Assembly: GCA_018650465.1 (NCBI GenBank)
Contig: JABIFY010000022.1
Location: 1-64,000, forward strand
DNA: 64,000 nucleotides
Reading direction: 5' to 3'
Source of the DNA: Alphaproteobacteria bacterium
GTDB taxonomy: Bacteria > Pseudomonadota > Alphaproteobacteria > UBA2966
How positions within the stretch are numbered: position 1 is the stretch's first letter; every line of letters begins with the position of its first letter. Under the pieces are notes generated by a model. That model did no database searches. It was given only the letters and a program-made list of their open reading frames with translations, and was not told the DNA's origin. A program made the translations under genes and the position numbers. This document shows, piece after piece, positions 10,474-31,895 of the stretch.

Positions 10474-11331
10474 TTAGAACCAGTTCTTTACCTTCCGTCC
10501 TTCCTTGTCTTCCATGTCGCCGCCGATCAGCATGGTGATCACATCGTAAAGATACCACAGGCCGGCACCGCCGACGGTGATGGTCATCAGGACTCCGGTT
10601 TTTTTGTGGCCGAGATAGTATCTGTGACCGCCGAAAATGCCCAGGATGATCAACAGCAGGCTGGCGGCAAACCTTTTGCGGGGCGAGATTTCATCGCTGC
10701 TGGTTTCTGCCGGTGTCTGGTCTGGTTTATTCTTTGGGCGGCTGACAAAGATATTGGGGTCATTCGCCGCATGAAATTCAGCGGGCTGGTAGCCGGGTTT
10801 GCCAGGCGGGGCGATCAGCCAGGCGACGATGGGCTCGGCAATGTTCTTGACCTGCTTTTCACCCAGTGACCGGTAGCCCAGATCAAGCTTGTTGCGGATC
10901 TGGCGGAAAACATCACCTGAGATGCAAATGCCGCCGGGTTCGGCCAGGGCCTCCAGACGGGCTGCGATATTAACGCCGTCGCCATGGATATCGTCTGAAT
11001 CGACAACAATATCCCCTAGATTGATGCCCATGCGAAACTCGGCAACCAGGTCTTGCTTTGCATTGAGCTTGTGTTCTGCAAAGGCTTCCTGCATTTCCAG
11101 AGCGCATCTGACGGCACCGGCGATGGTTGAAAACTCCGCCAGAAAGCCGTCGCCCGTGTGCTTGACGATACGCCCCGTATGGCGGGCCACGGTGGGATCA
11201 ATGACATCACGTCGGGCAGTGTGCCAGGCTTTGATGGTCGCATCTTCGTCTGCGTGCATCTGCCCGGTGTAGTTGACCATGTCTGCTGCCAGAATAGCGA
11301 CCAGTCGCCTGGTTACTGCTGCGTCCGTCAT
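10474..11331 (-). CDS. Class III adenylate/guanylate cyclase with C-terminal TM2 domain
   Basis: Makes cAMP or cGMP. Seen: cyclase domain in residues 6-180 with metal-binding Asp in ILAADMVNYT and HTGDGFLAEF, and the transition-state Asn/Arg in GDGVNIAARLE. A linker of about 50 residues is followed by a TM2 domain: RKRFAASLLLIILGIFGGHRYYLG, then GLWYLYDVITMLIGG. Cyclase fused to TM2 is an uncommon layout and would tether the catalytic domain to the inner membrane. The frame extends to 11385, but ATG 11331 behind AGAGGGA matches the conserved start. It lies 2 kb from an operon encoding a protein with two cyclic-nucleotide-binding domains (14473), a possible functional link. It does not look like part of an operon. 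Confidence 0.87.
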   Translation of the reverse strand: MTDAAVTRRLVAILAADMVNYTGQMHADEDATIKAWHTARRDVIDPTVARHTGRIVKHTGDGFLAEFSTIAGAVRCALEMQEAFAEHKLNAKQDLVAEFRMGINLGDIVVDSDDIHGDGVNIAARLEALAEPGGICISGDVFRQIRNKLDLGYRSLGEKQVKNIAEPIVAWLIAPPGKPGYQPAEFHAANDPNIFVSRPKNKPDQTPAETSSDEISPRKRFAASLLLIILGIFGGHRYYLGHKKTGVLMTITVGGAGLWYLYDVITMLIGGDMEDKEGRKVKNWF

Positions 11332-11393
11332 ATTTCCCTCTGAATATTGCCGGTCGATATTCCCATTTTTTCCAATAGCATACAATTACTCAA

Positions 11394-11633: not shown

Positions 11634-12884
11634 ATGGATTTTGCCTATTCGCAAAAGAGTCAGGACCTGTGTTTGCAGGTACAGAATTTCTTTGATGACC
11701 ATATTTTGCCGCGCAACGTTGCGTGGCACAAAGAGGTGGCCGAGGGCAAATACCCGGTCTCCTTCATGGATGACCTGAAGGCACTGGCGAAATCAGAGGG
11801 TCTGTGGAACCTGTTTTTGCCAGGTCTAAAGGAAGACGAACCTGGCACCCGATTGACGAACCTGGAATATGCCCCGCTGGCGGAAATCATGGGCAAGCTG
11901 ATGTGGGCCTCTGAGGTCTTCAACTGTAACGCACCTGATACCGGCAATATGGAGCTTTTGCACATGTTCGCCACCCCGGCCCAGCGTGAGCAGTGGCTGA
12001 ACCCCTTGCTGGCAGGTGATATCCGCTCGGCCTTTGTAATGACGGAACCGGACGTGGCCTCATCCGATGCCACCAACGTACAAACCCTGATCCGGCGCGA
12101 GGGGGACGAATACGTCATTAACGGGCGCAAATGGTTCATTACCAATGCGGCCCATCCCAATTGCAAGCTGCTAATCCTGATGGGCAAGACCGACCCGGAC
12201 GCCGCCGCTCATCAGCAACAAAGCATGGTGCTGATCCCCACCGAGACAGAGGGTGTGGATATTGTGCGCAACATTACTGTGTTGAACCATTTTGCCCCGG
12301 AAGGTCATTGTGAAATCGTCTTCCGCGATGTGCGCGTGCCTGTTTCCAGTATCCTTGGCGAAGAGGGGCAGGGCTTTATGTTGGCCCAGGCGCGTCTGGG
12401 GCCGGGTCGTATCCACCACTGCATGCGCTCCATTGGCCAGTCCGAACTGGCGCTTGATCTGATGTGCGAGCGCGCCCAGGAGCGGAAAACCTTTGGCAAA
12501 CACCTGCATGAATACGCCAATGTAGCCGACGATATTGCTGAATCCCGCATTGAAATTGATCAAGCCAGATTGCTGGTGCTGAAGACAGCCTGGATGATTG
12601 ACGAAGTGGGGGCCAAGGCAGCACGCAAGGAAATTTCCATGATCAAGGCCCTTGTGCCGCGCATGCAGTGCAAGATTACGGATCGGGCTATGCAAATCTT
12701 TGGTGCCATGGGTCTGAGCCCGGACACACCCTTGCCCGATCTTTATTCATGGGCCAGGGCCATTCGTTATGCTGACGGGCCCGATGAAGTTCATTTGCGC
12801 GGTGTGGCGCGTCTGGAAATCAGGGCCTCGGCAGAGAATCTGGGCCAGGCAGCACGCTACCTGACCCTGCCGGATCGCTTGTAG
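11634..12884 (+). CDS. Acyl-CoA dehydrogenase
   Basis: FAD-dependent alpha,beta-dehydrogenation of an acyl-CoA, 416 residues. Seen: middle-domain motif FVMTEPDVASSDATN (residues 136-150), NGRKWFITNAAHP, and the C-terminal helical domain with RKTFGKHLHEYANVADDIA and QIFGAMGLSPDTPLPDLYSWARAIRYADGPDEVH. The last segment matches the ACAD10/11-like and FadE-type branch. The frame opens at 11535, but ATG 11634 after ACGAGG precedes the conserved MDFAYS start. It stands alone and is followed by a cupin gene. Chain-length preference cannot be judged. Confidence 0.92.
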   Translation: MDFAYSQKSQDLCLQVQNFFDDHILPRNVAWHKEVAEGKYPVSFMDDLKALAKSEGLWNLFLPGLKEDEPGTRLTNLEYAPLAEIMGKLMWASEVFNCNAPDTGNMELLHMFATPAQREQWLNPLLAGDIRSAFVMTEPDVASSDATNVQTLIRREGDEYVINGRKWFITNAAHPNCKLLILMGKTDPDAAAHQQQSMVLIPTETEGVDIVRNITVLNHFAPEGHCEIVFRDVRVPVSSILGEEGQGFMLAQARLGPGRIHHCMRSIGQSELALDLMCERAQERKTFGKHLHEYANVADDIAESRIEIDQARLLVLKTAWMIDEVGAKAARKEISMIKALVPRMQCKITDRAMQIFGAMGLSPDTPLPDLYSWARAIRYADGPDEVHLRGVARLEIRASAENLGQAARYLTLPDRL

Positions 12885-12994
12885 GTGTTGCTAATGAAAG
12901 CTATTAAGAAATGTATATAAAGTTATATATAACAGGATCTTAAAATGATATCTGAAGGTAAAATAGCAGATGCATTCAAGGCCCGGGTACGATA

Positions 12995-13300
12995 ATGTCT
13001 GATCTTTTGACCAAAGGCTACGTGTCTGCCCCTGTTGATCAAGCCGCCGTGGCCGCAGACTGGGCCGTGCGGGGTTATTCATGCGGTCTGTTTGTCGATC
13101 CACCAGGCCAGGAATGGAATGACTTTGTGCACGGGGTCAATGAATTGGTCATGGTGGCGCAAGGACGGCTGGAGATGTCCGTTGGTGATCAGTCTTTTAT
13201 TGCTGAGGAGGGGGATGAAATATTTATCCCCAAAGGGGCTGTGCATTCCCTGAAAAATATCTCCTCGGGCATAACAAAATGGCTGTATGGTTATGATTGA
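12995..13300 (+). CDS. Small single-domain cupin protein
   Basis: 101 residues. Seen: cupin motif 1-like GVNELVMVAQGRLEMSVG and motif 2-like EEGDEIFIPKGAVHSLKNI, giving one beta-barrel domain. Only a His in motif 2 and scattered Glu are available for metal. Known: such small cupins act as isomerases, dioxygenases or ligand sensors. It lies about 110 bases after the acyl-CoA dehydrogenase gene and just ahead of the promoter of the multiheme operon, with no evidence that it belongs to either. Confidence 0.82.
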   Translation: MSDLLTKGYVSAPVDQAAVAADWAVRGYSCGLFVDPPGQEWNDFVHGVNELVMVAQGRLEMSVGDQSFIAEEGDEIFIPKGAVHSLKNISSGITKWLYGYD

Positions 13301-13340
13301 TTAATTGCTTTCCGGTAGTGTCCGGATGGTTCGCTAGAAC

Positions 13341-13368
13341 TTGACACTAGCTCTCTTAAGACTAAGAT
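13341..13368 (+). promoter_or_regulatory. Candidate sigma70-type promoter of the electron-transfer operon
   Basis: TTGACA at 13341-13346 is a perfect -35 box, with a 16-base spacer and TAAGAT (13363-13368) as -10. It lies about 40 bases ahead of the tetraheme cytochrome ATG, whose ribosome site is CAGGGGGAA. No convincing FNR or NarL box was seen upstream. Confidence 0.5.
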
Positions 13369-13407
13369 TTATAACAATAATAATACCGATATATTCCAGG
13401 GGGAATC

Positions 13408-14355
13408 ATGGAAATCGTTGGCCGCCATTTGTTTGCCGCAGTTCTGACTGCAATTGCCTTTGTCATGCTGACTCCAGCCGTTCAGGCGGCACCTGTCGCC
13501 CTGGGTGACAAGACCTGTCTTGAATGTCACAAGGCGGAGCATGCTGTTTGGTCTGAGACCAAACACTTCAAATCCTTCCGGACAGTTCACAAGAACAAAA
13601 AAGCCAAAGCCATTGTTAAATCGATTGGCGGCAAAAGCATGAAAAAAGAAGCAGCTTGTGCTTTGTGCCACTACACCAGCATTTCGAAAAAAGCTGGCAA
13701 AAAGGCAAAGCCAAAGGCTGGCCCCAGTTGCGAAAGCTGTCATGGCGCCTCTTCTGACTGGATAAAAATTCATAACGATTATGGCGGACCAAACGCCAAG
13801 ATGGCTGACGAAACCCCGGCCCATAAAGTCGAACGCATCGCCAAGGCCACAGCCGCCGGCATGATCTGGTCCAGCAACCACTATGGCATCGTTGAAAATT
13901 GCATGTCTTGCCATGGTCTGAATAATGACGCCCTGGATGGCAAAACCTTGGCTGCCATGCTTGATGCGGATCACCCATTGAACCCGGATTTTGAGCTGGT
14001 GCGCTATTCGCAAGGCTCCATCCGGCATCGCTATTATGCGCCGGACGCTACCAAAAATGCTGAAATGACACCGGCTCAGCTTTCGGAACTGTTTGTTGAA
14101 GGCCAAGCCGCCAAGCTCGTGTCCGCCACAGATGCGCTGACAAAATCTGACAACGCAAAATACCAGGCCGCACAAAAGTTGCGCCTGGAAAAGGCGAAAG
14201 CCGCATTGTCGGCTGTGAAGTCTGTGCCGGAAGTTGCGGCCTTGCTGAGCGCCCCTACCAGAGAAAACGCGCTTAAGCTTATTGAGGCCATCAAGGGTAA
14301 GGATTTGTCTGCTGAAGTTGGTTCCATGATCCCGGCGAAAGCCGACTTCAAATAA
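13408..14355 (+). CDS. Periplasmic tetraheme cytochrome c (c554-like)
   Basis: First gene of the operon, 315 residues. Seen: Sec signal peptide (residues 1-27, ending VQAA) and four CxxCH heme sites CLECH, CALCH, CESCH and CMSCH. The CLECHKAEHAVWSETKHFKSF start is the cytochrome c554 pattern (a CxxCH followed by xxxxxxW and a distal His). The C-terminal 100 residues are helical, Ala/Lys-rich and free of hemes. Known: c554 proteins shuttle electrons in the periplasm, for example from hydroxylamine oxidoreductase. Inference: soluble electron carrier for the operon. Its 3' end is involved in alternative hairpins. Confidence 0.92.
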   Translation: MEIVGRHLFAAVLTAIAFVMLTPAVQAAPVALGDKTCLECHKAEHAVWSETKHFKSFRTVHKNKKAKAIVKSIGGKSMKKEAACALCHYTSISKKAGKKAKPKAGPSCESCHGASSDWIKIHNDYGGPNAKMADETPAHKVERIAKATAAGMIWSSNHYGIVENCMSCHGLNNDALDGKTLAAMLDADHPLNPDFELVRYSQGSIRHRYYAPDATKNAEMTPAQLSELFVEGQAAKLVSATDALTKSDNAKYQAAQKLRLEKAKAALSAVKSVPEVAALLSAPTRENALKLIEAIKGKDLSAEVGSMIPAKADFK

Positions 14356-14397
14356 GAAAATAATAGAAAGTCGGCTTCAAATAAGCGAAAGCCGACT
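14339..14397 (+). promoter_or_regulatory. Three mutually complementary arms: alternative hairpins in the cytochrome/ferredoxin intergenic region
   Basis: Arms AAGCCGACTT (14339-14348), AAGTCGGCTT (14368-14377) and AAGCCGACT (14389-14397). The middle arm can pair with either flanking arm, so two mutually exclusive hairpins are possible. The first arm lies inside the stop end of the tetraheme gene and looks partly duplicated in the third (GCGAAAGCCGACT-x-AAATAA). This could be an RNA stabiliser or attenuator setting the ratio of the first gene to the rest. Confidence 0.55.
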
Positions 14398-14472
14398 ATA
14401 AATAACAATAAATATGGAAGATCCCAGGCTAAACAATAGTCTGGACTTCCCGATCCAGGGAGAGCAGGTCGA

Positions 14473-16161
14473 GTGGCATCAGTTGCGCATCTGAGCAAAC
14501 CCCAGCGTTGGGATTCGCCGTATGATCCGGAAATGCAGGACAGTGACGTCCAGAATTTGCTCACGCGTCCGGAAATTGTGGCGATTGATGCGAATTCCTT
14601 TCCCGACAGCCTGCCGCTTGAAGGCATACTCAAAAACGACACTCGACTGGTGCGCTTTAATCCTGGCGATATTGTGGTCCGCGAAGGTGATTACGGAAAT
14701 TCAGCCTTTGTCATCCTGAAGGGGGACCTCAGGGTCTTTACCGGCGATTATCCGACGGCATTACTGGGTCGTGAGACGGCCAGTAAAAAAGGGCTGTTCG
14801 AAACCCTTGCCCAGGTCTGGACCAACAAACGCACACCGGAAGTCCGGGATACGTCGCGATACGGGGATCAATCCGTTCGCGCCTCAAAACGCGGTGGGCG
14901 GGAAAAAAGGCTGGATTCAGGCTCAAGTGTCTTTGTTCAGGATATCCCCGTTGTGCTGGACAAGTATCGCACAGCCCAAATGTCGGAAGGGGCCTTGTTT
15001 GGCGAACTGGCGGCCTTGGGGCGCATTCCCCGGACAGCAACAATTTTTGCAGAAAATAGCGCGACTTTGCTGGAAATCCGCTGGCAGGGTTTGCGGGAAA
15101 TTCGCCGCTTTGACGACGGTTTCCGCAGAATGATTGATAACCGCTACCGGCAAAATGCCTTGCTGGTTCATTTGCGGGAAACCGAACTGTTTGCCAACCT
15201 GGATGAAGAAGTGCTGGACAAGGTCGCCCAGGCCACATTGTTCGAGACCTATGGCGCTTTTGACTGGCATGTGAGTTATCAGAAGATGCGCTCCAGCGGC
15301 AAAGCCGCATCAACAAATGAGCCAGCCATTGCGCGGCAGGGTGAATATGTCGATGGCCTGTTGATGATCCGGGCGGGTTTTGCGCGGGTTGCCCGTGAAT
15401 ATGGCACCGGCCAGCGCACCCTGACCTATTTGGGGGCGGGCGACAATTTTGGCCTGGAAGAACTTTATCAAGGCTGGAAAGCGGGCGAGACAGTTAATAT
15501 GTCTTCGTCACTGACGGCGCTGGGCTATGTCGATGCCCTGCGGGTACCGGCCCAGGTTCTTGAGGAATATGTCTTTCCTCACCTGGCAGAGGGTGCGATC
15601 AAGCTGACGGAAAAAACCGAACGTACACTGGCAGACGATGCCTTGCTGGAGTTCGCCGTCGAAGAACGTTTTATCAATGCAACGCAGGCCATGCTGATCG
15701 ACCTCGACCGTTGCGTGCGCTGTGATGATTGCGTACGGGCTTGCGCCTCGACCCACGGCGGCAACCCGCGCTTCTTGCGGCATGGCAAAACATTTGACCA
15801 CTGGATGGTGACCAATGCCTGTATGCATTGCACGGATCCGGTCTGCATGATCGGCTGTCCCACCGGCGCCATTCACCGCAGTCAGGTCGGTGGCAGTGTT
15901 GTTATCAATGATGACACCTGTATCGGCTGTTCGACCTGTGCAACGTCTTGTCCCTACAACAATATCCGCATGGTCGAAATTCGCAGCGCGGACAGCCACG
16001 TTGTCGTCGATCCGGACACACAGCAGCCCATCCTCAAGGCTACAAAATGCGATCTTTGTTATACCAACCCTGGTGGCCCGGCCTGTGTGCGGGCTTGCCC
16101 CCATGATGCTCTTAATCGGGTTGATTTCCATTTGGATTCCCTCGCCGAGGGAGATATCTGA
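14473..16161 (+). CDS. Tandem cyclic-nucleotide-binding domains fused to a four-cluster [4Fe-4S] ferredoxin
   Basis: 562 residues, GTG start. Seen: a cNBD around residues 45-220 with VRFNPGDIVVREGDYGNSAF and a near-complete phosphate-binding cassette LFGELAALGRIPRTATIFA (Glu and Arg kept). A long insertion (about residues 95-165) interrupts its beta-roll. A second, degenerate cNBD follows (FANLDEEVLDKVAQ ... GAGDNFGLEELYQG). From residue 405, 16 Cys form four clusters: CVRCDDCVRAC, CMHCTDPVCMIGC, CIGCSTCATSC and CDLCYTNPGGPACVRAC. The ferredoxin part resembles HybA/DmsB-type subunits. No signal peptide, so it should be cytoplasmic. Inference: an electron carrier whose docking or transfer may respond to cAMP or cGMP. 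Its stop overlaps the next start (TGATG). Confidence 0.88.
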   Translation: MASVAHLSKPQRWDSPYDPEMQDSDVQNLLTRPEIVAIDANSFPDSLPLEGILKNDTRLVRFNPGDIVVREGDYGNSAFVILKGDLRVFTGDYPTALLGRETASKKGLFETLAQVWTNKRTPEVRDTSRYGDQSVRASKRGGREKRLDSGSSVFVQDIPVVLDKYRTAQMSEGALFGELAALGRIPRTATIFAENSATLLEIRWQGLREIRRFDDGFRRMIDNRYRQNALLVHLRETELFANLDEEVLDKVAQATLFETYGAFDWHVSYQKMRSSGKAASTNEPAIARQGEYVDGLLMIRAGFARVAREYGTGQRTLTYLGAGDNFGLEELYQGWKAGETVNMSSSLTALGYVDALRVPAQVLEEYVFPHLAEGAIKLTEKTERTLADDALLEFAVEERFINATQAMLIDLDRCVRCDDCVRACASTHGGNPRFLRHGKTFDHWMVTNACMHCTDPVCMIGCPTGAIHRSQVGGSVVINDDTCIGCSTCATSCPYNNIRMVEIRSADSHVVVDPDTQQPILKATKCDLCYTNPGGPACVRACPHDALNRVDFHLDSLAEGDI

Positions 16162-16976
16162 TGGTTGCCAGTCGTATTCGCATTTTGATGGTCCTGCTGG
16201 TCGCGGGTGTGGTTTTCGACCTGTTATTGCTGGAAAGTGATCGGATCAAGGTTTCCCTCGGCAGTGCCGCTGAACTGACGGGATACTGGTTGTTCGGCGT
16301 TATGGTTTTTCTGACGCTGTTTAATTTGCGCAAAAAACTGTCAATGATCCCCTTGGGGTCCGCATCGATCTGGTTAACTTTACACGCCGTTGGTGGCGTT
16401 CTGACATTGGCCCTGTATTGGCTGCATACGGAATCTATCTGGCCTCAGGGTGTCTACGAACAGGTCATTGCCGTCCTTTTTTATCTGACGGTCGCCAGTG
16501 GCATATTCGGCTATGTCACACAAAAAATATATCCACCGCGCCTGACTCAATCCGGCGTTGAAGTTATTTATGAGCGCATCCCCGCCCATATTTTTGAAAT
16601 CAGGGAAGAGGTCGAAGCCCTGGTATTGAAGTGCACCGAGGAAACCCGGGTTGATACCCTTGGACGGCATTATCTGGACACAATGACCTGGTTTTTCCAT
16701 CGGCCGCGGTTTTTTATCAGCCATACAGTCGGTAGCCAGATTGGTCGCCAATGGGTGCGTCAGCAAGATGCCAATGTGCGTCGATACCTGAATGATGAAG
16801 AAGCACTTTATCTCGACAAGATGACGGAACTGGCCCTCCTGAAAAATGGTATTGATCTGCACTACGCCTTGCAAAGTGTCATGAAGCGCTGGTTGCTACT
16901 GCATTTGCCTTTGACCGCAGCCTTGATGACATTGGCGATTTGGCACCTTCTTGTTGTGAATGTGTATGCATTATGA
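16161..16976 (+). CDS. Five-helix membrane protein, predicted di-heme cytochrome b
   Basis: 271 residues. Seen: hydrophobic helices at about 6-24, 40-57, 68-89, 97-120 and 245-268. His75 and His89 (LHAVGG, YWLH) on helix 3 and His248 and His262 (LLHLPL, IWHLLV) on helix 5 are each 14 residues apart, the spacing that ligates two stacked b hemes across a membrane. Between helices 4 and 5 is a soluble domain of about 120 residues rich in charged residues. I do not recognise a named family. Inference: it carries electrons through the inner membrane between the cytoplasmic ferredoxin/reductase and the periplasmic cytochromes. Its end overlaps the decaheme gene by 4 bases (ATGA). Confidence 0.78.
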   Translation: MVASRIRILMVLLVAGVVFDLLLLESDRIKVSLGSAAELTGYWLFGVMVFLTLFNLRKKLSMIPLGSASIWLTLHAVGGVLTLALYWLHTESIWPQGVYEQVIAVLFYLTVASGIFGYVTQKIYPPRLTQSGVEVIYERIPAHIFEIREEVEALVLKCTEETRVDTLGRHYLDTMTWFFHRPRFFISHTVGSQIGRQWVRQQDANVRRYLNDEEALYLDKMTELALLKNGIDLHYALQSVMKRWLLLHLPLTAALMTLAIWHLLVVNVYAL

Positions 16977-18886
16977 GCAATTCATTCGACTATAATTTTG
17001 ATCGAAGTTCCTACGAACGGCCCAACAACTTGTTTGTCTGTGGCCGGGCAACCGAATGGGGCAAGCCCTGTGGCCGGGGACCGAATGGCGACGGCACCTG
17101 TGGCGGTACAGCCGAATGCAAACCATTTGATCGCAATGGCCGCTGGGAATGTCGCAGGCCGCCGCAAGATGGCGGCCCCTGTGCTGACGGGCCGGGCCCG
17201 GATGGAACTTGCGGCTGTTCTTTGCCTCCTTGTGTGCCGCGACGCTCGTTGAGGCAACAGAGGTGGCGTTTGTCTGTCATTCTTGTGGGTGTGGCCATTG
17301 CCCTGATCGCTGTTTTTACCCAGTTGGCGACCAATAATGATATTTTTGCCGGTTCCGCCAGATTGGCAGCCCTTGATGCCGGCGACCTGACCGGATCACA
17401 TTCAGGGTTCACAGGTGCCAAAGGCTGCAAAACCTGTCACGAGGCCCACGACGCCAAGCCCTTACAGTGGCTGGCTGCCGCATTCAGCAAAAATGACCTG
17501 ACGACGCGCTGCGTTGATTGTCACAAATTCGGTGGTCCTGCCAACAGGCCCCATAATGCCATCTTCACATCCACGGTGGGCGGCAAGAGCAACGCCAATC
17601 GCAAGACCGAATGCACCATGTGCCACACGGAACACAAAGGCGAAGGCGCTGACATCTCCGGTCTGGATAATAAACAATGTGCCTCCTGTCACAAAAAGGC
17701 TTTTTCGACCTTTGATCGTGGACACCCCAAATTCTCCAAACAATTCCCCCATTTCCGCCGGGCCTCTATCCGTTTTAATCATGCTTCACACCTGAACAAA
17801 AACTTTCTCAAGCCAGAAGTGAAAGACAAGGCCCCGGCCAGTTGCACCACTTGCCATCAGGCGACATCAGCTGAGCGTTCGGTTGAACCGCTTGGGTTCG
17901 ATAAAAGCTGCGCTGGTTGTCACGCAGACCAAATATCCAAACGTAATCTTGTGGTCTTGCGCCTGCCCGAATTTGAAGAGACTGAAATCGACAAGGATGC
18001 CGTCATCGAAGCCTGCGGCCCCAATGCCGAGGATGAAGAGGAAGACGAGGAATATGAAAGTGTCTCGGCGGAGGAATTGAACTCTGTGGGGGCCTTCCTG
18101 ATGAATGTGACTTCTGATGACGTGGAAGCCTATTCCGAAGCCTTTCAGACCTTGCTGATGGCCATGGCCGAAGAGGGTACCGTGCCTTTGGCTGGTTTGC
18201 TGGAAGAAGCTGGTATCAAGGGCAATCCGGCGACAATGTTTGCTGGTCTGAATCCCGAGGCAGTAAAACGCATGGCCTGTGCCTGGGCTAAAAACCAGGA
18301 ATATGAATTGCCGGCCGATCCTCAGTTCGGCGGTTGGTACGGCGATATTGTGGATTTGATATACCGTCCGGCGGGGCACGGCGACCCGGTCGTCAAAGCC
18401 TGGCTGGAAATGGCGATCTCAGCCAAAAGTGACGACGAAGAAGTTTCTGAGCGCATTTCTGACATGCGCACTGAATTGTTGTCCCCCCGTGAAGGGGCGG
18501 GGGCATGCGTGAAATGTCATGCGGTCAGCCGGGAAACTGAAGAGGGGCCTCTGAAAATTGAGTGGACCTATCACAAAGACAGAGAGCAAAGCTATCAGAC
18601 CTATTCTCACAGTCAGCACCTCAGTCTGGTAAATCCACAAGGTGTGAAGCTGGCGGATCCGACACGGGGCTGTGCCACCTGTCACAAGCTGGACCAGAAA
18701 GCTGATTTCGCCTCCGGATTTAAAGATTTCAACCCGAAGACGTTTTCGAGTAACTTTACTTCGTTAGATAAGCAAGCGTGCGTACAATGTCATACAGAAG
18801 GCCGTGTCCGTCAGGATTGCCAGCTTTGTCATGATTATCACAAGGAGCCCGGGTTTACAGACCGGGTCACACAGAATGAAAACTGA
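16973..18886 (+). CDS. Membrane-anchored decaheme cytochrome c with Cys-rich cytoplasmic head
   Basis: 637 residues from the overlapping ATGA. Seen: residues 23-84 hold nine Cys in a duplicated pattern (GKPCGRGPNGDGTCGGTAEC and GGPCADGPGPDGTCG), then one transmembrane helix (about 98-118). Six CxxCH sites follow (CKTCH at 152, CVDCH, CTMCH, CASCH, CTTCH, CAGCH at 313). A heme-free insert of about 200 residues has an acidic run (AEDEEEDEEYE), and four more sites close the protein (CVKCH at 512, CATCH, CVQCH, CQLCH at 616). Topology inference: Cys-rich head inside, hemes in the periplasm. The head could bind a metal or Fe-S cluster and so accept electrons inside the cell. It overlaps the next gene by 11 bases. 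Confidence 0.9.
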   Translation: MSNSFDYNFDRSSYERPNNLFVCGRATEWGKPCGRGPNGDGTCGGTAECKPFDRNGRWECRRPPQDGGPCADGPGPDGTCGCSLPPCVPRRSLRQQRWRLSVILVGVAIALIAVFTQLATNNDIFAGSARLAALDAGDLTGSHSGFTGAKGCKTCHEAHDAKPLQWLAAAFSKNDLTTRCVDCHKFGGPANRPHNAIFTSTVGGKSNANRKTECTMCHTEHKGEGADISGLDNKQCASCHKKAFSTFDRGHPKFSKQFPHFRRASIRFNHASHLNKNFLKPEVKDKAPASCTTCHQATSAERSVEPLGFDKSCAGCHADQISKRNLVVLRLPEFEETEIDKDAVIEACGPNAEDEEEDEEYESVSAEELNSVGAFLMNVTSDDVEAYSEAFQTLLMAMAEEGTVPLAGLLEEAGIKGNPATMFAGLNPEAVKRMACAWAKNQEYELPADPQFGGWYGDIVDLIYRPAGHGDPVVKAWLEMAISAKSDDEEVSERISDMRTELLSPREGAGACVKCHAVSRETEEGPLKIEWTYHKDREQSYQTYSHSQHLSLVNPQGVKLADPTRGCATCHKLDQKADFASGFKDFNPKTFSSNFTSLDKQACVQCHTEGRVRQDCQLCHDYHKEPGFTDRVTQNEN

Positions 18887-20666
18887 GACTGCAACCCTCA
18901 CTCCCTGGCGTGATTATTCATTACGTACATCTACCTGGCGATCCGTGCTGTTCGCCTCTGCCCTGATGCTGGCCGTGCTGATGTCAGTGTGGCCAACGCT
19001 TGCAGCAGATAAAAAAGTCGCTGACCCCCACGCAGATGTCTTTTCCGAAAGCTCTTATCCTTCGGCAACGGAATGTGCCAAATGTCACCGGGATACTTAT
19101 GAAGAGTGGCGGTCATCCAGCCATGCTTATGCCGCCATCTCGCCGGTTTTTCACAAGTTCGAACAGGCCATCAATAACCTGGCCCCAACGATTGGCGATT
19201 TCTGCGTGCGTTGTCATGCAACGGCTGGCACCCAGATGGGCGAAAAGCGTGAAGCAGCCTTATGGGAGCGCTCACAGGTCTCGCGCGAAGGCATTACCTG
19301 CATTACCTGCCACCGGGTCGATGAAGCCTATCTGAAAGTGAATGGCGAACGCCGGATCGTTCCGGGCGATATCTTCCAGCCGGTTTACGGACCGACCGGT
19401 GGTGAGGGCGTAGCCAAGGTGATCAAGGACAAGGATTTTTATAAGGTCGCCACAAAAGAGGGCGAGCGCGGCAATCAAATCCATCTCTCTGCCATCAAGT
19501 TTGAGCAGTTAGACAAATCGGAATTTTGCGGCGCCTGTCACCAGGTCGCTGTGAACCTTGGGGTCAAGCTGGAAGTGGTTTGGGACCAGTACCGGGCGTC
19601 GCCAGCATATGCTGCGGGTACCACATGCCAGGATTGTCACATGAGCAAGGAGCCGGGCAAGGCAGCTGGTTTCAGGAAGGGTTCTACGGCTGTTGTCGGC
19701 GGCAAGGAAATTAACCCGGAACGCAAGCGTCATAATCACGCCCTGGTTGGACCTGGTTATCCTATCGCCCACCCCGGCATTTTCCCGCACAATGGGGCTG
19801 CCGAAAACTGGACTATTGAAGAATGGCTTCAGTTTGATTATCGCGCTGGCTGGGGCACCGAAGAATTTGAGGAAAAAGTCGACGAAGGCGAGATAGAAGA
19901 TAAATTCCCCGAAGCCTGGGAAGATGTCGCCGATCGGGAAGAAGCCCGCGAGATCATTGAAGACAACCTTGACAAAATTGACGAGAAAAAAGACCTGCGC
20001 CAACAGGTCATGGAAAATGGCTCCCGCATCGACGGTCCGTTTTTTGAAGGCAGCAAGGGCATCGGTCAAAGCCTCGCTTTCTCTTACAAGGTCAGCAATA
20101 TCAATCCCGGCCATAACCTGCCGTCAGGGTCCCTGGGGGCCCAGCCGGAACTTTGGTTGAACGTGGCCCTGATCGATCCGGATGGCAAGAATGTCTGGGA
20201 GTCTGGTTATGTGGATTCAGCCGGTGACATGGCTGACCTGCACAGCCAGGATGTGCTGGATGGCAAGCTGGCACACGATGATCAGTTGTTTAATTTGCAA
20301 ACCAAATTTCTGACAACCAACGTCAAAGGCACAGACCGCGAGATGTATTTACCGGTGAACTTTGATGTGGACCAGCTGCCGTTCTTGCGACCTGCAGCCC
20401 AGCCAACAACTGTGATAAACCATCCACCGTTCGTACGTATGGAAGGCCGCAGTATTCCGCCTCTGGGGTCACGCATGGCAGAATATAAAGTGCCGGGCAA
20501 TCTGATCAGCAAGCCAGGAAAATATCGCCTCGCCGTCCGCATGCGCAGCCGGGCCGAGCCGATCTATTTCATGAAGTTCATTGGGGCCACCCAGGATATG
20601 ATACGATCCATGAATGAATGGATGTTGGATATTCACCCCTATACGGTCGAGTTCGAGGTTAAATAG
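18876..20666 (+). CDS. Pentaheme c554-family cytochrome with long C-terminal domain
   Basis: 596 residues from ATG 18876, which overlaps the upstream stop. Seen: a hydrophobic segment (about 22-44, ending LAAD) that may be a cleaved signal or an anchor, then five CxxCH sites between residues 67 and 251 (CAKCH, CVRCH, CITCH, CGACH, CQDCH). The c554-like ECAKCHRDTYEEW pattern is present. The C-terminal 340 residues carry no heme but include NINPGHNLPSGSLG, a motif seen in multiheme cytochromes with a beta-rich tail, and a very acidic stretch (EEFEEKVDEGEIEDKFPEAWED). Inference: a periplasmic heme protein that may be a reductase or a connector to the outer-membrane protein encoded next, which starts directly after its stop. 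Confidence 0.88.
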   Translation: MKTETATLTPWRDYSLRTSTWRSVLFASALMLAVLMSVWPTLAADKKVADPHADVFSESSYPSATECAKCHRDTYEEWRSSSHAYAAISPVFHKFEQAINNLAPTIGDFCVRCHATAGTQMGEKREAALWERSQVSREGITCITCHRVDEAYLKVNGERRIVPGDIFQPVYGPTGGEGVAKVIKDKDFYKVATKEGERGNQIHLSAIKFEQLDKSEFCGACHQVAVNLGVKLEVVWDQYRASPAYAAGTTCQDCHMSKEPGKAAGFRKGSTAVVGGKEINPERKRHNHALVGPGYPIAHPGIFPHNGAAENWTIEEWLQFDYRAGWGTEEFEEKVDEGEIEDKFPEAWEDVADREEAREIIEDNLDKIDEKKDLRQQVMENGSRIDGPFFEGSKGIGQSLAFSYKVSNINPGHNLPSGSLGAQPELWLNVALIDPDGKNVWESGYVDSAGDMADLHSQDVLDGKLAHDDQLFNLQTKFLTTNVKGTDREMYLPVNFDVDQLPFLRPAAQPTTVINHPPFVRMEGRSIPPLGSRMAEYKVPGNLISKPGKYRLAVRMRSRAEPIYFMKFIGATQDMIRSMNEWMLDIHPYTVEFEVK

Positions 20667-22184
20667 ATGCTGATGTTCAAAATAAAGGCTTCCCGTTCTG
20701 GCATCGCTTCACTGGTTCTGGGGCTTGCCGCTGGTGCATCACTGGCCTTTGCCGCGCAAGCCGCCGATGTCAAAATGGACGAGGGTAGCAAGATCGTTGA
20801 ACATTCATCGACGGTCTTCAAACCCGATCCAGACTACAAGGAAACGCCTTATTCGGCTGAAGCCCAACGGAATATCTATGGCGGCAAGTCAGCTGTGGAA
20901 ACGCCGCGCCCACTTCTGGAACTGGGTCGCAAGCAATATTCTGAAGGGCCGTTTGAAAAAGGCTCTGACTTTTTCGGTAAAAAGAATCTGATGTTTCCCG
21001 GCCTGTCGATCTATGGCGACTGGCGTACAGCTGTGGCCTATAACGACAATGGTGCTGGCGAAGTTGGTCGTGTTGCGACCCGCCTCAATCTTGATATCGA
21101 TTTGAAGCTGACCTCGACGGAGCGCATCCATGCCTTCTTGCGGCCACTGGATCAGGGCGGCAATTTCACCCGCATTGATTTCTCAGGTGATGATGAAGCG
21201 GGTAGCGAGCTTGTTACCGATGCCAATCTGCAAACCTTGTTCTTTGAAGGGGACCTTGGATCCATTGCCACTGGCCTGAGCGATAGTTATTCAGGTTTTG
21301 ACTTACCGTTTTCCTTTGGCTTGATGCCCCTGGTCTTCCAGAACGGTATCTGGATGGATGATGCTTTTTCAGGTGTGGCTTTTTCCATTCCGGCCCGTAA
21401 TTCAGCGGCCCTCGATATATCCAATATGGATTTCACGTTCTTTGCCGGTCTGGATAAAGTAACATCGCCCGCGATCACGGATGGTATCGGGGATCAGGCT
21501 GATCACAACGTCAATATCTATGGTGCGGCTGCCTTTGTTGAAGCCAACAGGGGCTACTGGGAAGCCGGTTACGCCCGCCTTGATGGCCGTGATGGCCTGG
21601 ACGAATTTGATTTTCATAATGTGACTGTGGCCCATACCCGTCGCTTCAGGGCCTTGCTGTCAAACAGTGCCCGTGTGATCTGGAGCTTTGGCCAGAATCG
21701 CGACAATAATGTTCAGCAAACGGCGGATGGCACGATCATTCTCATAGAGAACTCTCTGATCACGTCGAAGCCGTCCACCTATATTCCTTACTTCAACTTC
21801 TTCGCCGGGTTTGACCGGCCGCAATCGGCGGCCCGGGACAATGGTGGGATATTGAAAAATGTCGGTATCAACTTCGAAACCGATGCTCTGACCGGCTATC
21901 CTAAACTGGACGACACTGGCCATGATACTTTTGGCGGTGCTGTCGGTATCAACTATCTGTTTGGCCTTGATCGCCAGATTGTCGCAGAAGTCGCGGGCCT
22001 GAAAATTCGCGGCAGTCAAAATGATGCTGGACGCGCCGCTGCAGGTGATCAGTTTGCAGTCGGTGTGCGTTACCAACAACCGATCAGCAAAACCTGGATT
22101 TTGCGCGGTGATGCCATGGCTGGTTTCCGTGATGCCGCCGATGATTTGCTGGGCGTTCGGTTTGAAGTCCGGCGGAAATTTTAG
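20667..22184 (+). CDS. Outer-membrane beta-barrel protein of the multiheme operon
   Basis: 505 residues. Seen: signal peptide (ends AAQAAD, about residue 33), repeated alternating hydrophobic strands (GLSIYGDWRTAVAYND, RVATRLNLDIDLKLTS, RQIVAEVAGLKIRG) and a C-terminal strand LLGVRFEVRRKF ending in Phe, the usual BAM signal. It is shorter than the MtrB/PioB barrels of known porin-cytochrome conduits and lacks their CxxC. It starts at the base after the pentaheme stop, so it is co-translated. Inference: it could insert a cytochrome into the outer membrane, or be a channel for the substrate. I do not recognise a specific family. Confidence 0.82.
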   Translation: MLMFKIKASRSGIASLVLGLAAGASLAFAAQAADVKMDEGSKIVEHSSTVFKPDPDYKETPYSAEAQRNIYGGKSAVETPRPLLELGRKQYSEGPFEKGSDFFGKKNLMFPGLSIYGDWRTAVAYNDNGAGEVGRVATRLNLDIDLKLTSTERIHAFLRPLDQGGNFTRIDFSGDDEAGSELVTDANLQTLFFEGDLGSIATGLSDSYSGFDLPFSFGLMPLVFQNGIWMDDAFSGVAFSIPARNSAALDISNMDFTFFAGLDKVTSPAITDGIGDQADHNVNIYGAAAFVEANRGYWEAGYARLDGRDGLDEFDFHNVTVAHTRRFRALLSNSARVIWSFGQNRDNNVQQTADGTIILIENSLITSKPSTYIPYFNFFAGFDRPQSAARDNGGILKNVGINFETDALTGYPKLDDTGHDTFGGAVGINYLFGLDRQIVAEVAGLKIRGSQNDAGRAAAGDQFAVGVRYQQPISKTWILRGDAMAGFRDAADDLLGVRFEVRRKF

Positions 22185-22252
22185 GCCAGAGAGATGTCAG
22201 AGAAAAATGTCAGAGAAATGATGGGGCTGAATAAACCAGAGGAGCAACGTTC

Positions 22253-23527
22253 ATGGATGTCTTGATCGATCTTTTTGCCGTCCTGTTTCTGGGCGTTGTC
22301 ACGATCTATACCGGTAGCTGGGCGCTGATGTATAACCGCCGCACTTTGCTGGCCCGGCGCAGCCATGAGCATCAGCAGGAATTGTTGCGGGCGCAAATTG
22401 ATTTGATCGCTGACCGCAGGCGCATGGAGCGAGAGAAAACCGATCTTTCGTGGAACGGCTTTCGTAAATTTGAAGTCCACCGCAAGCAAATCGAGGCGGA
22501 TGGCGTATGCTCGTTCTATCTCGCTCCCCATGATCGCAAAGACTTGCCACCTTTTGAGCCTGGCCAGTTCCTGACATTTGACTTGCCGGTGCCGGGGCAG
22601 CCAAAAAATATTATTCGCTGTTATTCCCTGTCAGACAGTCCCAATCATCCAGACTATTACCGGGTGTCGATCAAGCGTGTGCCGCCGCCGCGGGATCAAC
22701 CAGACCTGCCACCTGGCCTTTCGTCAAACTATTTCCATGACAACCTGGAAGAGGGCGATATCCTGGACGTCAAAGCACCGTCCGGGCACTTCTATCTTGA
22801 TATGTCATCCCACATGCCCGTCGTTCTGATCGGTGGCGGCGTTGGTCTGACACCGGTGTTGAGTATGTTGAACGCCATAGTCGAAGCCGGGTCACAAAGG
22901 GAAACGCATTTTTTCTACGGCGTCGTGAATGGCAAGGATCACGCCTTCAAAGAGCATCTGCACCAAATCGCCCTGGAAAACCAGAATGTGCATTTGCATG
23001 TTTGTTATTCCAAGCCAGCGGATGACGATGTCCTGGGTGAGGATTTCCAACACGACGGCCGGGTCGGTGTGCCCTTGTTCAAGGAACTGCTGGACTCCAA
23101 CAATTACGAATATTACCTATGTGGTCCGCCGCCCATGATGAATTCTGTTGTCGGTGATCTGGGTGAATGGGGTGTCCCGGAAAAGAATATTCATTTTGAA
23201 GCCTTCGGTCCGGCATCAGTTAAAAAACCCAAGGACGATGCTCCCGCCGATCCGGCAGCCACCTCGGTTTCATATGAGGTCAGTTTTGCCCGTTCAAACA
23301 AAAAAGTGACGTGGACGCCAGAAGCAGGATCGTTACTGGAGCTGGCAGAAGACAACGGCATCAACGCCATTAACTCAGGTTGTCGGGCCGGTAACTGCGG
23401 CTCCTGCATTACGGCCATCAAAAAAGGTGAGGTCGATTACGTTAACGAGCCGGGTTCACCGCCAGAAGATGGCTCGTGTCATGCCTGTATCACGGTGCCA
23501 AAGTCCAATATGGAAATTGACGCCTGA
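22253..23527 (+). CDS. Membrane-anchored FAD/[2Fe-2S] NAD(P)H oxidoreductase
   Basis: 424 residues, last gene of the operon. Seen: an N-terminal helix (about 4-25), a short charged coil, an FAD domain with RCYSLSD and SNYFHDNLEEGD (close to flavohemoglobin reductase), an NAD(P) domain with LIGGGVGLTPVLSML and YYLCGPPPMM, and a C-terminal plant-type ferredoxin with CRAGNCGSC (Cys377, 382, 385) and a further Cys at 409 or 412. The layout matches NqrF/phenol hydroxylase-type reductases with the 2Fe-2S domain moved to the C-terminus. Inference: it moves electrons between NAD(P)H and the cNBD-ferredoxin or the cytochrome b. ATG 22253 is preceded by CAGAGGAGC. It ends 7 bases from the converging P450 gene. 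Confidence 0.9.
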   Translation: MDVLIDLFAVLFLGVVTIYTGSWALMYNRRTLLARRSHEHQQELLRAQIDLIADRRRMEREKTDLSWNGFRKFEVHRKQIEADGVCSFYLAPHDRKDLPPFEPGQFLTFDLPVPGQPKNIIRCYSLSDSPNHPDYYRVSIKRVPPPRDQPDLPPGLSSNYFHDNLEEGDILDVKAPSGHFYLDMSSHMPVVLIGGGVGLTPVLSMLNAIVEAGSQRETHFFYGVVNGKDHAFKEHLHQIALENQNVHLHVCYSKPADDDVLGEDFQHDGRVGVPLFKELLDSNNYEYYLCGPPPMMNSVVGDLGEWGVPEKNIHFEAFGPASVKKPKDDAPADPAATSVSYEVSFARSNKKVTWTPEAGSLLELAEDNGINAINSGCRAGNCGSCITAIKKGEVDYVNEPGSPPEDGSCHACITVPKSNMEIDA

Positions 23528-23534
23528 TCTGAAG

Positions 23535-24791
23535 TCAGCTGACATTGGCCTTGATGTGAAGGTGTTTGACACCGCGTGTCAGCAAGGTATCCAGCCACTC
23601 CGGTGCCGGGTCGGCAATGGAGATATCCCGCATGCGGTTCAATAATTTCGGAAAACCGATTTGGCCTTCAACGCGGGCGAGGTTGGCACCCAGACACATG
23701 TGAACACCGTGGCCAAAAGATATCTGGCGGCGGGCATTTTCGCGGGTGAGGTCAAGGTTTTGCGGTTCCGGGAACATGGCGGGGTCGTGATTGGCCGCGC
23801 CATTAAAGGCAAATACCCGTTGGCCCTTTTTCATTGCAACCACACCATTTGATGAAGCCCAGTCAACGTCCTCGGCCAGGACCCGTACGGTTGAAATTGC
23901 AGGACCATCCCAGCGCAGCATTTCTTCTCCGGCATTGCTGACGAAAGAGGCGTCATCACCATGTTGGCGCAACTTTTCCATTTGTGCCGGATGCAAAATC
24001 AGGCTGCGTAATCCGTTGGAGAAAAAATGTGCTGTGGTTTCATGTCCTGCAAAAAGCAACAGAACGCAGGACGCGATTAGCTCCGGCAGGCTGAGAAGTT
24101 CTTCGCCATCATGGGCATTGATCAGGCCATCAATAATTTGCTCGCCAGGTGCGGCCCGGCGCTCATCGATCAACCTTGAAAAATAGTCGTTCATTTCCGC
24201 CAGGCTGGCAGCAGCCCTGTTGTATTTATCCGGATCAATACGCGAGGCCAAAACAAAACTGGCCAGTTCATCGGACCAGTGTTTCAACCGATCAAGGTCA
24301 TCATCCGGAATGCCCAGCATAACAGCAATGACACGTGCCGGTACCAGCCACGAAAAATCTGCCATGAAGTCGAACGTATCGCGGCCTCTTAGACCATCCA
24401 GCTGGTCGTCGATGATTTCCCCGATGCGGGGCGTAAGGGCTGCCACAGCGCGTCGGGTGAAGGCCTTGTTGGCCAGTTTTCTCAGATGGGTATGCTTGGC
24501 GCCGTCGTTGAAAACCATCCATAAACCCAGACAGTCACCCAGCATCTTGATCTGGTCTGAGGCATCAGCACCCTGATGGGTCACAAAGGGCTGAATACGG
24601 TCTGCCGAAAAGCGCGGATCGCGTAAACACAGGGTGACGTCTTCATAACTGGCAAAACACCAGCCACCAATGGAGGTATTCCAGTGGATCTGGTTTTCCG
24701 CCACCAAGGCTCTGAAATGTGGGTAAGGGTCCGCAATGTTGGCAGGGTCGAGAAAGTCGATTTGCTCGACGGCAACTTCGTTCAAAGACAT
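23535..24791 (-). CDS. Cytochrome P450
   Basis: 418 residues, soluble bacterial type. Seen: I-helix oxygen-activation motif LLLFAGHETTAHFF, K-helix-like region EEMLRWDGPAISTVRVLAEDV, and the heme-thiolate loop ISFGHGVHMCLGANLARVEG. Redox partners are not adjacent on its strand, although the FAD/2Fe-2S reductase gene ends 7 bases away on the opposite strand. It is the last gene of a possible P450/RAM-domain unit. Substrate not predictable. Confidence 0.95.
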   Translation of the reverse strand: MSLNEVAVEQIDFLDPANIADPYPHFRALVAENQIHWNTSIGGWCFASYEDVTLCLRDPRFSADRIQPFVTHQGADASDQIKMLGDCLGLWMVFNDGAKHTHLRKLANKAFTRRAVAALTPRIGEIIDDQLDGLRGRDTFDFMADFSWLVPARVIAVMLGIPDDDLDRLKHWSDELASFVLASRIDPDKYNRAAASLAEMNDYFSRLIDERRAAPGEQIIDGLINAHDGEELLSLPELIASCVLLLFAGHETTAHFFSNGLRSLILHPAQMEKLRQHGDDASFVSNAGEEMLRWDGPAISTVRVLAEDVDWASSNGVVAMKKGQRVFAFNGAANHDPAMFPEPQNLDLTRENARRQISFGHGVHMCLGANLARVEGQIGFPKLLNRMRDISIADPAPEWLDTLLTRGVKHLHIKANVS

Positions 24792-31830: not shown

Positions 31831-31895
31831 CCGTAAAACGAGTCGGTAAAACGGGTCGGTAAAACGGGTCGGTGAAACGGGTGGTAAAATGGCCG
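31831..31895. repeat. 13-base tandem repeat upstream of parE
   Basis: About five units of GGTAAAACGGGTC with point changes, in the gap between parE and the thioesterase gene (31767-32001). The rest of the gap is AT-rich. It could hold promoters or protein-binding sites for parE. Confidence 0.75.

Follow-up and report, generated by a model that had tools for sequence, protein, structure and literature searches.

Most of what is known about electron systems that span the cell envelope comes from a small number of metal-respiring bacteria, in which these systems start from quinol. In Geobacter, a cluster encoding the porin ExtI and the pentaheme cytochrome ExtKL is required for full selenite and tellurite reduction (PMC5877670), and ExtHIJKL contributes to the reduction of Fe(III) and Mn(IV) (PMC6148476). 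Cytochrome c552 and Geobacter ExtKL have been grouped in a 2025 paper as one pentaheme family with an immunoglobulin (Ig)-like domain (PMC11976967). Here we describe a cassette of seven genes (g1 to g7, Table 1) in a 64,000-nucleotide stretch of DNA from an Alphaproteobacteria bacterium (lineage UBA2966; assembly GCA_018650465.1, contig JABIFY010000022.1, positions 1 to 64,000), the whole of which is called the window below. All seven open reading frames (ORFs) were confirmed at 13408-23527, co-directional on the plus strand, and the ORFs, heme motifs and domains bear out the composition, coordinates and strand given in a preliminary description of this DNA. The reading that we put forward, with a confidence slightly short of even, is that the genes encode an electron-export machine of two modules that would carry electrons from NAD(P)H to a soluble acceptor via a porin, conditional on a cyclic nucleotide.

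Because the b-type cytochrome g3 belongs to no known family, it was chosen as bait for genome searches. Within the window's family, four of seven genomes have it. Among 385 genomes of the class, 48 gave a match at E <= 0.001, roughly half of these being strong, and a broader profile matched 54 of 398 phylum genomes. Named metagenome-assembled genomes (MAGs) with g3 are from Rhodospirillaceae, Rhodospirillales and Nitrospinota/Nitrospinaceae, plus one Verrucomicrobiia bin. The cassette itself is spread over many families of Alphaproteobacteria and is also present in MAGs that carry the labels Nitrospinota and Verrucomicrobiia. The order g1-g2-g3-g4-g5-g6-g7 is found in the window and at L007, L052, L057, L062, L063 and L066, while g5-g6-g7-g1-g2-g3-g4 is found at L068, L073 and L075 and g5-g6-g1-g2-g3-g4-g7 at the Nitrospinota loci; other classes of the phylum have g7-g1-g2-g3-g4 as a single run. 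ORF calling across the loci was crude, and single genes missing from the gene-order table are often artefacts. Since the same genes and order recur in unrelated genomes, the seven-gene set is far beyond chance and, judged by gene content and order, is a conserved system. Recurrence of the same cassette in unrelated alphaproteobacteria had been set beforehand as the check on this point, and the order does recur across families.

The seven genes had been taken as one unit, which covariation now divides in two. When the gene families were set against each other by their pairwise distances at the loci they share, g1, g2, g3, g4 and g7 had mutual rho values of 0.59-0.91 (0.84 for g1 against g2) and g5 against g6 gave 0.89; between these two groups rho was only 0.00-0.34. 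On this evidence from sequence distances, the cassette is a five-gene inner module (g1, g2, g3, g4 and g7) joined to a two-gene outer module (g5 and g6), and the low cross-group values suggest that the inner and outer parts have been exchanged between lineages as units. A strong g5 match is present in 29 of the 385 class genomes, of which 28 also have g3 (Fisher p 1.5e-28, uncorrected for relatedness), and in the Verrucomicrobiia MAG the inner module stands alone at its locus with g5 elsewhere in the same genome. Because g5 and g3 co-occur even when unlinked, as in this MAG, the modules seem to be mutually dependent without linkage. The covariation of g1 with the inner module makes it more likely a shuttle leaving the inner membrane than a part of the outlet. 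The sister genome SI054_bin61 has two copies of the system (L008/L047 (G003:C133) and L039), one in the window order and the other with a divergently transcribed outer module.

No flanking substrate gene is consistent across the loci, nor does a conserved respiratory terminal enzyme adjoin the cassette there. The missing terminal enzyme, together with the frequency of the cassette in marine and sphingomonad-type genomes beyond the known metal respirers, would fit a housekeeping supply of reducing power to the periplasm of mostly aerobic cells, for example for assimilatory iron reduction or the repair of oxidized periplasmic or surface molecules, with the porin serving for nutrients. We consider this quite improbable, as nineteen c hemes, two b hemes and many Fe-S clusters would be costly for a low-flux task. 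A scan of viral contigs for the cassette found nothing, and plasmid occurrences were limited to distant Sphingobium-type relatives. These distant inner modules, some of them on Sphingobium megaplasmids, are without the window-type reductase, and some lie near other, larger multiheme proteins. The distant relatives at L077-L084, L118-L128 and L085 encode a ~800 aa cyclic nucleotide-binding Fe-S protein that retains two intact nucleotide sites, a b cytochrome and a decaheme cytochrome with an FHA-like N-terminus in some; they are sometimes near decaheme proteins of ~870-1375 aa, and one is on a Sphingobium megaplasmid.

The proposed control point is g2, a member of the cyclic nucleotide-binding domain (cNBD) family (PF00027, 75.6 bits against a cut-off of 27.5) that also has several Fer4 matches. 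Its ferredoxin part, starting at residue ~406, is nearest to the four-cluster ferredoxins of the DmsB/HydN/HycB type in Pfam and NCBIfam, and the 16 cluster cysteines are kept in 58/58 homologs. The first of its two cNBDs (cNBD1, residues ~60-205) contains the phosphate-binding cassette FGELAALGRIPRTA (E178, R187), and within the motif FGE..(8)..R(T/S) Glu178 is conserved in 57 and Arg187 in all 58 of the 58 homologs, down to ~28% identity. The equivalent Glu and Arg in CRP, PKA and PKG hold the ribose and phosphate of the nucleotide. In cNBD2, the residues are degenerate in the window type and intact in the distant type. This conservation is strong evidence that the ligand site of g2 is under selection; the cNBD had been noted earlier, while its intact ligand-binding motif had been missed. 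With Glu178 and Arg187 kept, regulation of the ferredoxin relay by cyclic AMP (cAMP) or cyclic GMP (cGMP) is a serious hypothesis. The 29 class III nucleotide cyclase matches in the host genome make a cyclic-nucleotide ligand plausible. A class III adenylate/guanylate cyclase with a C-terminal TM2-like domain is encoded at 10474-11385 on the minus strand, ~2 kb upstream of the cassette. We rejected it as a dedicated partner: apart from the window, just one sister genome (L007 ~1002) has it beside the cassette and no other locus does, and its proximity may be chance given the 29 matches genome-wide.

The numbers of CXXCH motifs in g1, g4 and g5 (four, ten and five, respectively) are the same in almost all homologs. 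Pfam and NCBIfam assign g4 and g5 to the multiheme c-type cytochromes. Outside these motifs, g1 has four invariant histidines for its four hemes, g4 has ten near-invariant ones for ten and g5 has at least five for five, counts that fit bis-His transfer hemes and suggest no clear open catalytic site. With its four motifs and 45.6 bits against a cut-off of 20.8 for PF13435 (Cytochrome_C554), g1 belongs to the Pfam c554 family, and it matches cytochrome c554 in the PDB (1bvb) at E 7.9e-9. That family membership and weak NapC/NrfB-type matches of g5 are what speak for a nitrogen-oxide system, in which g1 and g5 would take part in the conversion of NO, hydroxylamine or nitrite. This appears very unlikely, given that g1 scores 51.8 against a cut-off of 400 for Nitrosomonas CycA, that the cassette has no octaheme HAO or NrfA, and that the extra histidines cover the hemes (4/4 in g1, at least 5/5 in g5) with no obvious open catalytic heme.

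Hydropathy gives five hydrophobic segments in g3, which has no Pfam family match in the window. Its H75, H89, H248 and H262 are invariant in 23 homologs with identity down to 21%. As the first pair is placed in predicted transmembrane helix (TM) 3 and the second in TM5, with spacings of 14 and 14, one b heme is predicted near each membrane face. The decaheme g4 has a conserved Cys-rich N-terminal domain, a single TM helix (100-118) and then the ten-heme domain, predicted to be periplasmic. The Cys-rich stretch ahead of the helix is predicted to be cytoplasmic because of adjoining arginines; it has no Pfam family match and is a possible further metal or Fe-S site. This N-terminal part (16973-17240) has a doubled G-x-P-C-x-x-GP-x-x-DG-x-C pattern before the membrane helix, and a 30-base tandem repeat is called inside it at 17038-17118. 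The reductase g7 has FAD, NAD and 2Fe-2S domains above Pfam cut-offs (PF00970, PF00175 and PF00111), an N-terminal hydrophobic anchor by hydropathy, and RCYSLS, GGGxGlTP and 2Fe-2S Cys motifs that are conserved among homologs.

In the outer module, g5 matches the Thermochromatium tepidum pentaheme c552 (5ze8) at E 1.3e-15 over the five-heme region with all five motifs in register, and more weakly over the C-terminal domain, where its AlphaFold model has a beta-sandwich at residues 383-596. The model was used for the beta-sandwich only, and the Foldseek neighbors of the unreliable heme domain were set aside. Since it combines a homologous five-heme domain with an Ig-like beta domain C-terminal to it, g5 is a member of the c552/ExtKL pentaheme class; it is related to the ExtKL family NF040886 and falls outside it at 44.6 bits against a cut-off of 250. 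An insertion of ~170 residues separates the heme domain from the Ig-like domain in a pentaheme subgroup (L048, L050-L054). The g6 model, with ~18 strands and a predicted local distance difference test score (pLDDT) of 62, has an OprD/MOMP-type 18-strand fold; its nearest structural neighbors are OprD/Occ channels and Campylobacter MOMP (Z 24.8, root-mean-square deviation 3.1, 318 residues aligned). By sequence, g6 was not assigned to OprD/MOMP, its sole match being YfaZ, below cut-off.

MtrB-type conduits have 26 or more strands and ~650-700 residues. Because the barrel part of g6 has only ~400 residues, it cannot be built in the same way, and no barrel of the MtrB/PioB family (PF11854) was found for g6 or anywhere in this genome or 20 relatives. 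The structural neighbors of g6 are also without a large multiheme-conduit barrel, a list that does not alone exclude one. Judged from these models, we prefer periplasmic discharge onto soluble acceptors admitted by the porin to a wire of hemes crossing the outer membrane. Of the possible cofactor link from cytoplasm to outer membrane in the preliminary description, the stretch as far as the periplasm is supported as something the cofactors could provide, and a continuation of hemes across the outer membrane is not supported. True extracellular electron transfer, with g5 docked on or in g6 or on the outer surface and reaching metal oxides, electrodes or partner cells, is in our view unlikely: g6 models as an 18-strand porin, an MtrB/PioB barrel was not found in the 21 genomes, and the cassette is without an extracellular multiheme lipoprotein. 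It nevertheless draws on the strict pairing and covariation of barrel and pentaheme (rho 0.89), on a lipobox-like LYSC of g5 in Nitrospinota loci, on the distant inner-module relatives near very large decaheme proteins, and on ExtHIJKL, which has a porin and a pentaheme without an outer-surface cytochrome and aids Fe(III)/Mn(IV) reduction (PMC6148476).

For export to a soluble acceptor, a path can be drawn in which cofactor type and location are the basis for inferring each arrow, and with it the direction of flow and the sequence of carriers. g7 would take hydride from NAD(P)H, and its FAD and 2Fe-2S cofactors would hand electrons on to g2 with its four 4Fe-4S clusters. The two b hemes of g3 would then conduct the electrons across the inner membrane, to be picked up by g4, the membrane-anchored decaheme, and g1, the soluble tetraheme. 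From there the electrons would pass to the periplasmic pentaheme g5, and its exposed low-potential hemes could discharge onto a small soluble acceptor entering via the dedicated OprD-like porin g6; candidates are a metal chelate, an oxyanion, a flavin or a quinone-like compound. The first cNBD of g2 would bind cAMP or cGMP, and electron flow would be conditional on the level of the second messenger. The further proposal that either nucleotide on cNBD1 opens or closes the flow from NAD(P)H to the periplasm, as a ligand-gated post-translational respiratory circuit used in several phyla with interchangeable outer-membrane outlets, is a more speculative one, and we hold it to be possible but doubtful.

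Several observations weigh against conditional export to a soluble acceptor. No acceptor gene or catalytic heme is evident in the cassette. The heme domain of g5 is poorly modelled by AlphaFold and the heme order is not derivable from it, and the g6 model has a moderate pLDDT of 62. In Nitrospinota loci, g5 is a predicted lipoprotein with its lipobox-like LYSC and might sit at the outer membrane surface. On the regulatory side, L076 has Met at the cNBD1 Glu position, and no cyclase is conserved next to the cassette outside the window's genus. Finally, NAD(P)H could equally be the product, in which case the chain would run inward: a donor would be oxidized in the periplasm or outside the cell, and g7 would deliver the electrons to NAD(P)+. 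Such uptake, an alternative already named in the preliminary description, is compatible with the sequence, since every cofactor can carry electrons either way, but the nearest pentaheme class is described as low-potential, g7 is of an ordinary NAD(P)H-oxidizing flavoprotein type, and no donor-oxidizing enzyme (HAO, Cyc2 or Sox) is seen in the cassette, making uptake highly unlikely.

Table 1. Promoter-like site and genes of the cassette, in window coordinates
Feature	Coordinates	Strand	Basis
Promoter-like site, TTGACA-16-TAAGAT	13341..13368	+	consensus match only, 10/12
g1, exported tetraheme cytochrome c, c554-like, 315 aa	13408..14355	+	PF13435, PDB 1bvb, heme motifs
g2, cytoplasmic cNBD-cNBD-4x[4Fe-4S] protein, 562 aa, GTG start	14473..16161	+	PF00027, Fer4, conserved residues
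g3, five-helix di-heme b-type membrane cytochrome, 271 aa	16161..16976	+	invariant His, hydropathy
g4, membrane-anchored decaheme cytochrome, 637 aa	16973..18886	+	heme motifs, hydropathy
g5, exported pentaheme cytochrome with C-terminal beta-sandwich (Ig-like) domain, 596 aa	18876..20666	+	5ze8 match, model
g6, outer-membrane beta barrel, OprD/MOMP-type porin fold, 505 aa	20667..22184	+	structure model
g7, membrane-anchored NAD(P)H:FAD:2Fe-2S reductase, 424 aa	22253..23527	+	PF00970, PF00175, PF00111

Overlapping or abutting ends, which had been described for the whole run, are found at four of the junctions. g2 and g3 overlap by 1 bp, g3 and g4 by 4 bp (ATGA), an overlap that places the start of g4 at 16973 and not at 16940, and g5 and g6 abut. 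The start of g5 is probably ATG 18876 and not GTG 18804 (the longest ORF), giving an 11 bp overlap with g4. The remaining junctions have gaps of 117 bp (g1/g2) and 68 bp (g6/g7). Part of the first gap is taken up by short, degenerate repetition of the g1 3' end, of which three degenerate copies (GCGAAAGCCGACTTCAAATAAGAA) stand at 14335-14408 and resemble a small tandem duplication. The promoter-like site, immediately 5' of g1, is the top plus-strand match within 12800-24000. A small single-domain cupin is encoded just 5' of the cassette at 12995-13300 and is not kept beside it in the loci checked. Elsewhere in the window, a 13-base tandem repeat (GTAAAACGGGTCG, 4.5 copies) at 31833-31889 adjoins the start of a minus-strand gyrase-B-like gene (29727-31766).

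The assembly was not found described in the open-access full-text literature (PMC), subscription papers being outside that scope, and its novelty is provisional; its parts have relatives in known families. What would be new in kind is the second-messenger site fused to an electron relay, provided that it functions as a switch. In that case it would be, as far as we know, the first example of an electron-transfer chain under direct control by a second messenger. The window system, which would take NAD(P)H as its starting point, is present in many proteobacteria, marine and other, that are unrelated to one another, and it has interchangeable inner and outer modules; it would, if the reading is true, provide a sequence handle for unrecognized electron-export capacity in ocean genomes.

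Family cut-offs and the barrel type bear out the earlier claim that the composition is unlike that of Mtr, Pio, Mto or Hao modules. Nitrosomonas cytochrome c554, like g1, is a tetraheme with a Cytochrome_C554 domain, whereas g1 has a long lysine-rich C-terminal extension, four candidate distal histidines and no HAO partner. As a family assignment, the HAO/c554 nitrogen-oxide module was rejected (g1 reaches 51.8 bits where CycA requires 400, and an octaheme HAO is absent from the cassette). In ferric reductases and NADPH oxidases, as proposed here, an FAD/NAD(P)H domain feeds two b hemes that are held by His pairs of TM3 and TM5 and move electrons outward, the spacing within a pair being 13-14 residues; in contrast, the window chain is split into separate proteins with 2Fe-2S and 4x[4Fe-4S] relays and would continue into decaheme and pentaheme carriers. 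The ferric reductase family (PF01794) was rejected for g3, with no match in the window, weak matches in 2 of 23 homologs and an hhalign probability of 2%, so that only the His geometry is common to both.

MtrCAB, PioAB and MtoAB resemble the cassette in encoding multiheme c-type cytochromes with an outer-membrane barrel, yet the window barrel has ~18 strands and is not of the MtrB/PioB family, and there is no extracellular cytochrome. Their inner side is a CymA-type quinol dehydrogenase, compared with a chain of NAD(P)H reductase, ferredoxin and cytochrome b in the window. The MtrA/DmsE-type decaheme family (TIGR03508) had no match on g4 and a best score of 25.6 against a cut-off of 192.2, on g5; an Mtr/Pio conduit was rejected on this decaheme result and on the absence of PF11854. 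The T. tepidum c552 (~435 aa, compared with 596 aa for g5) was compared at the level of the protein only. ExtHIJKL of Geobacter sulfurreducens has, as here, a porin-like outer-membrane protein beside a periplasmic pentaheme with an Ig-like domain and no surface cytochrome (PMC6148476, PMC11976967), and ExtI/ExtKL is the best precedent for the outer module. The rhodanese lipoprotein and selenocysteine split of the Geobacter system are absent from the window cassette, in which the porin-pentaheme pair is instead coupled to its own inner module, which is NAD(P)H-fed and includes a cNBD-ferredoxin.

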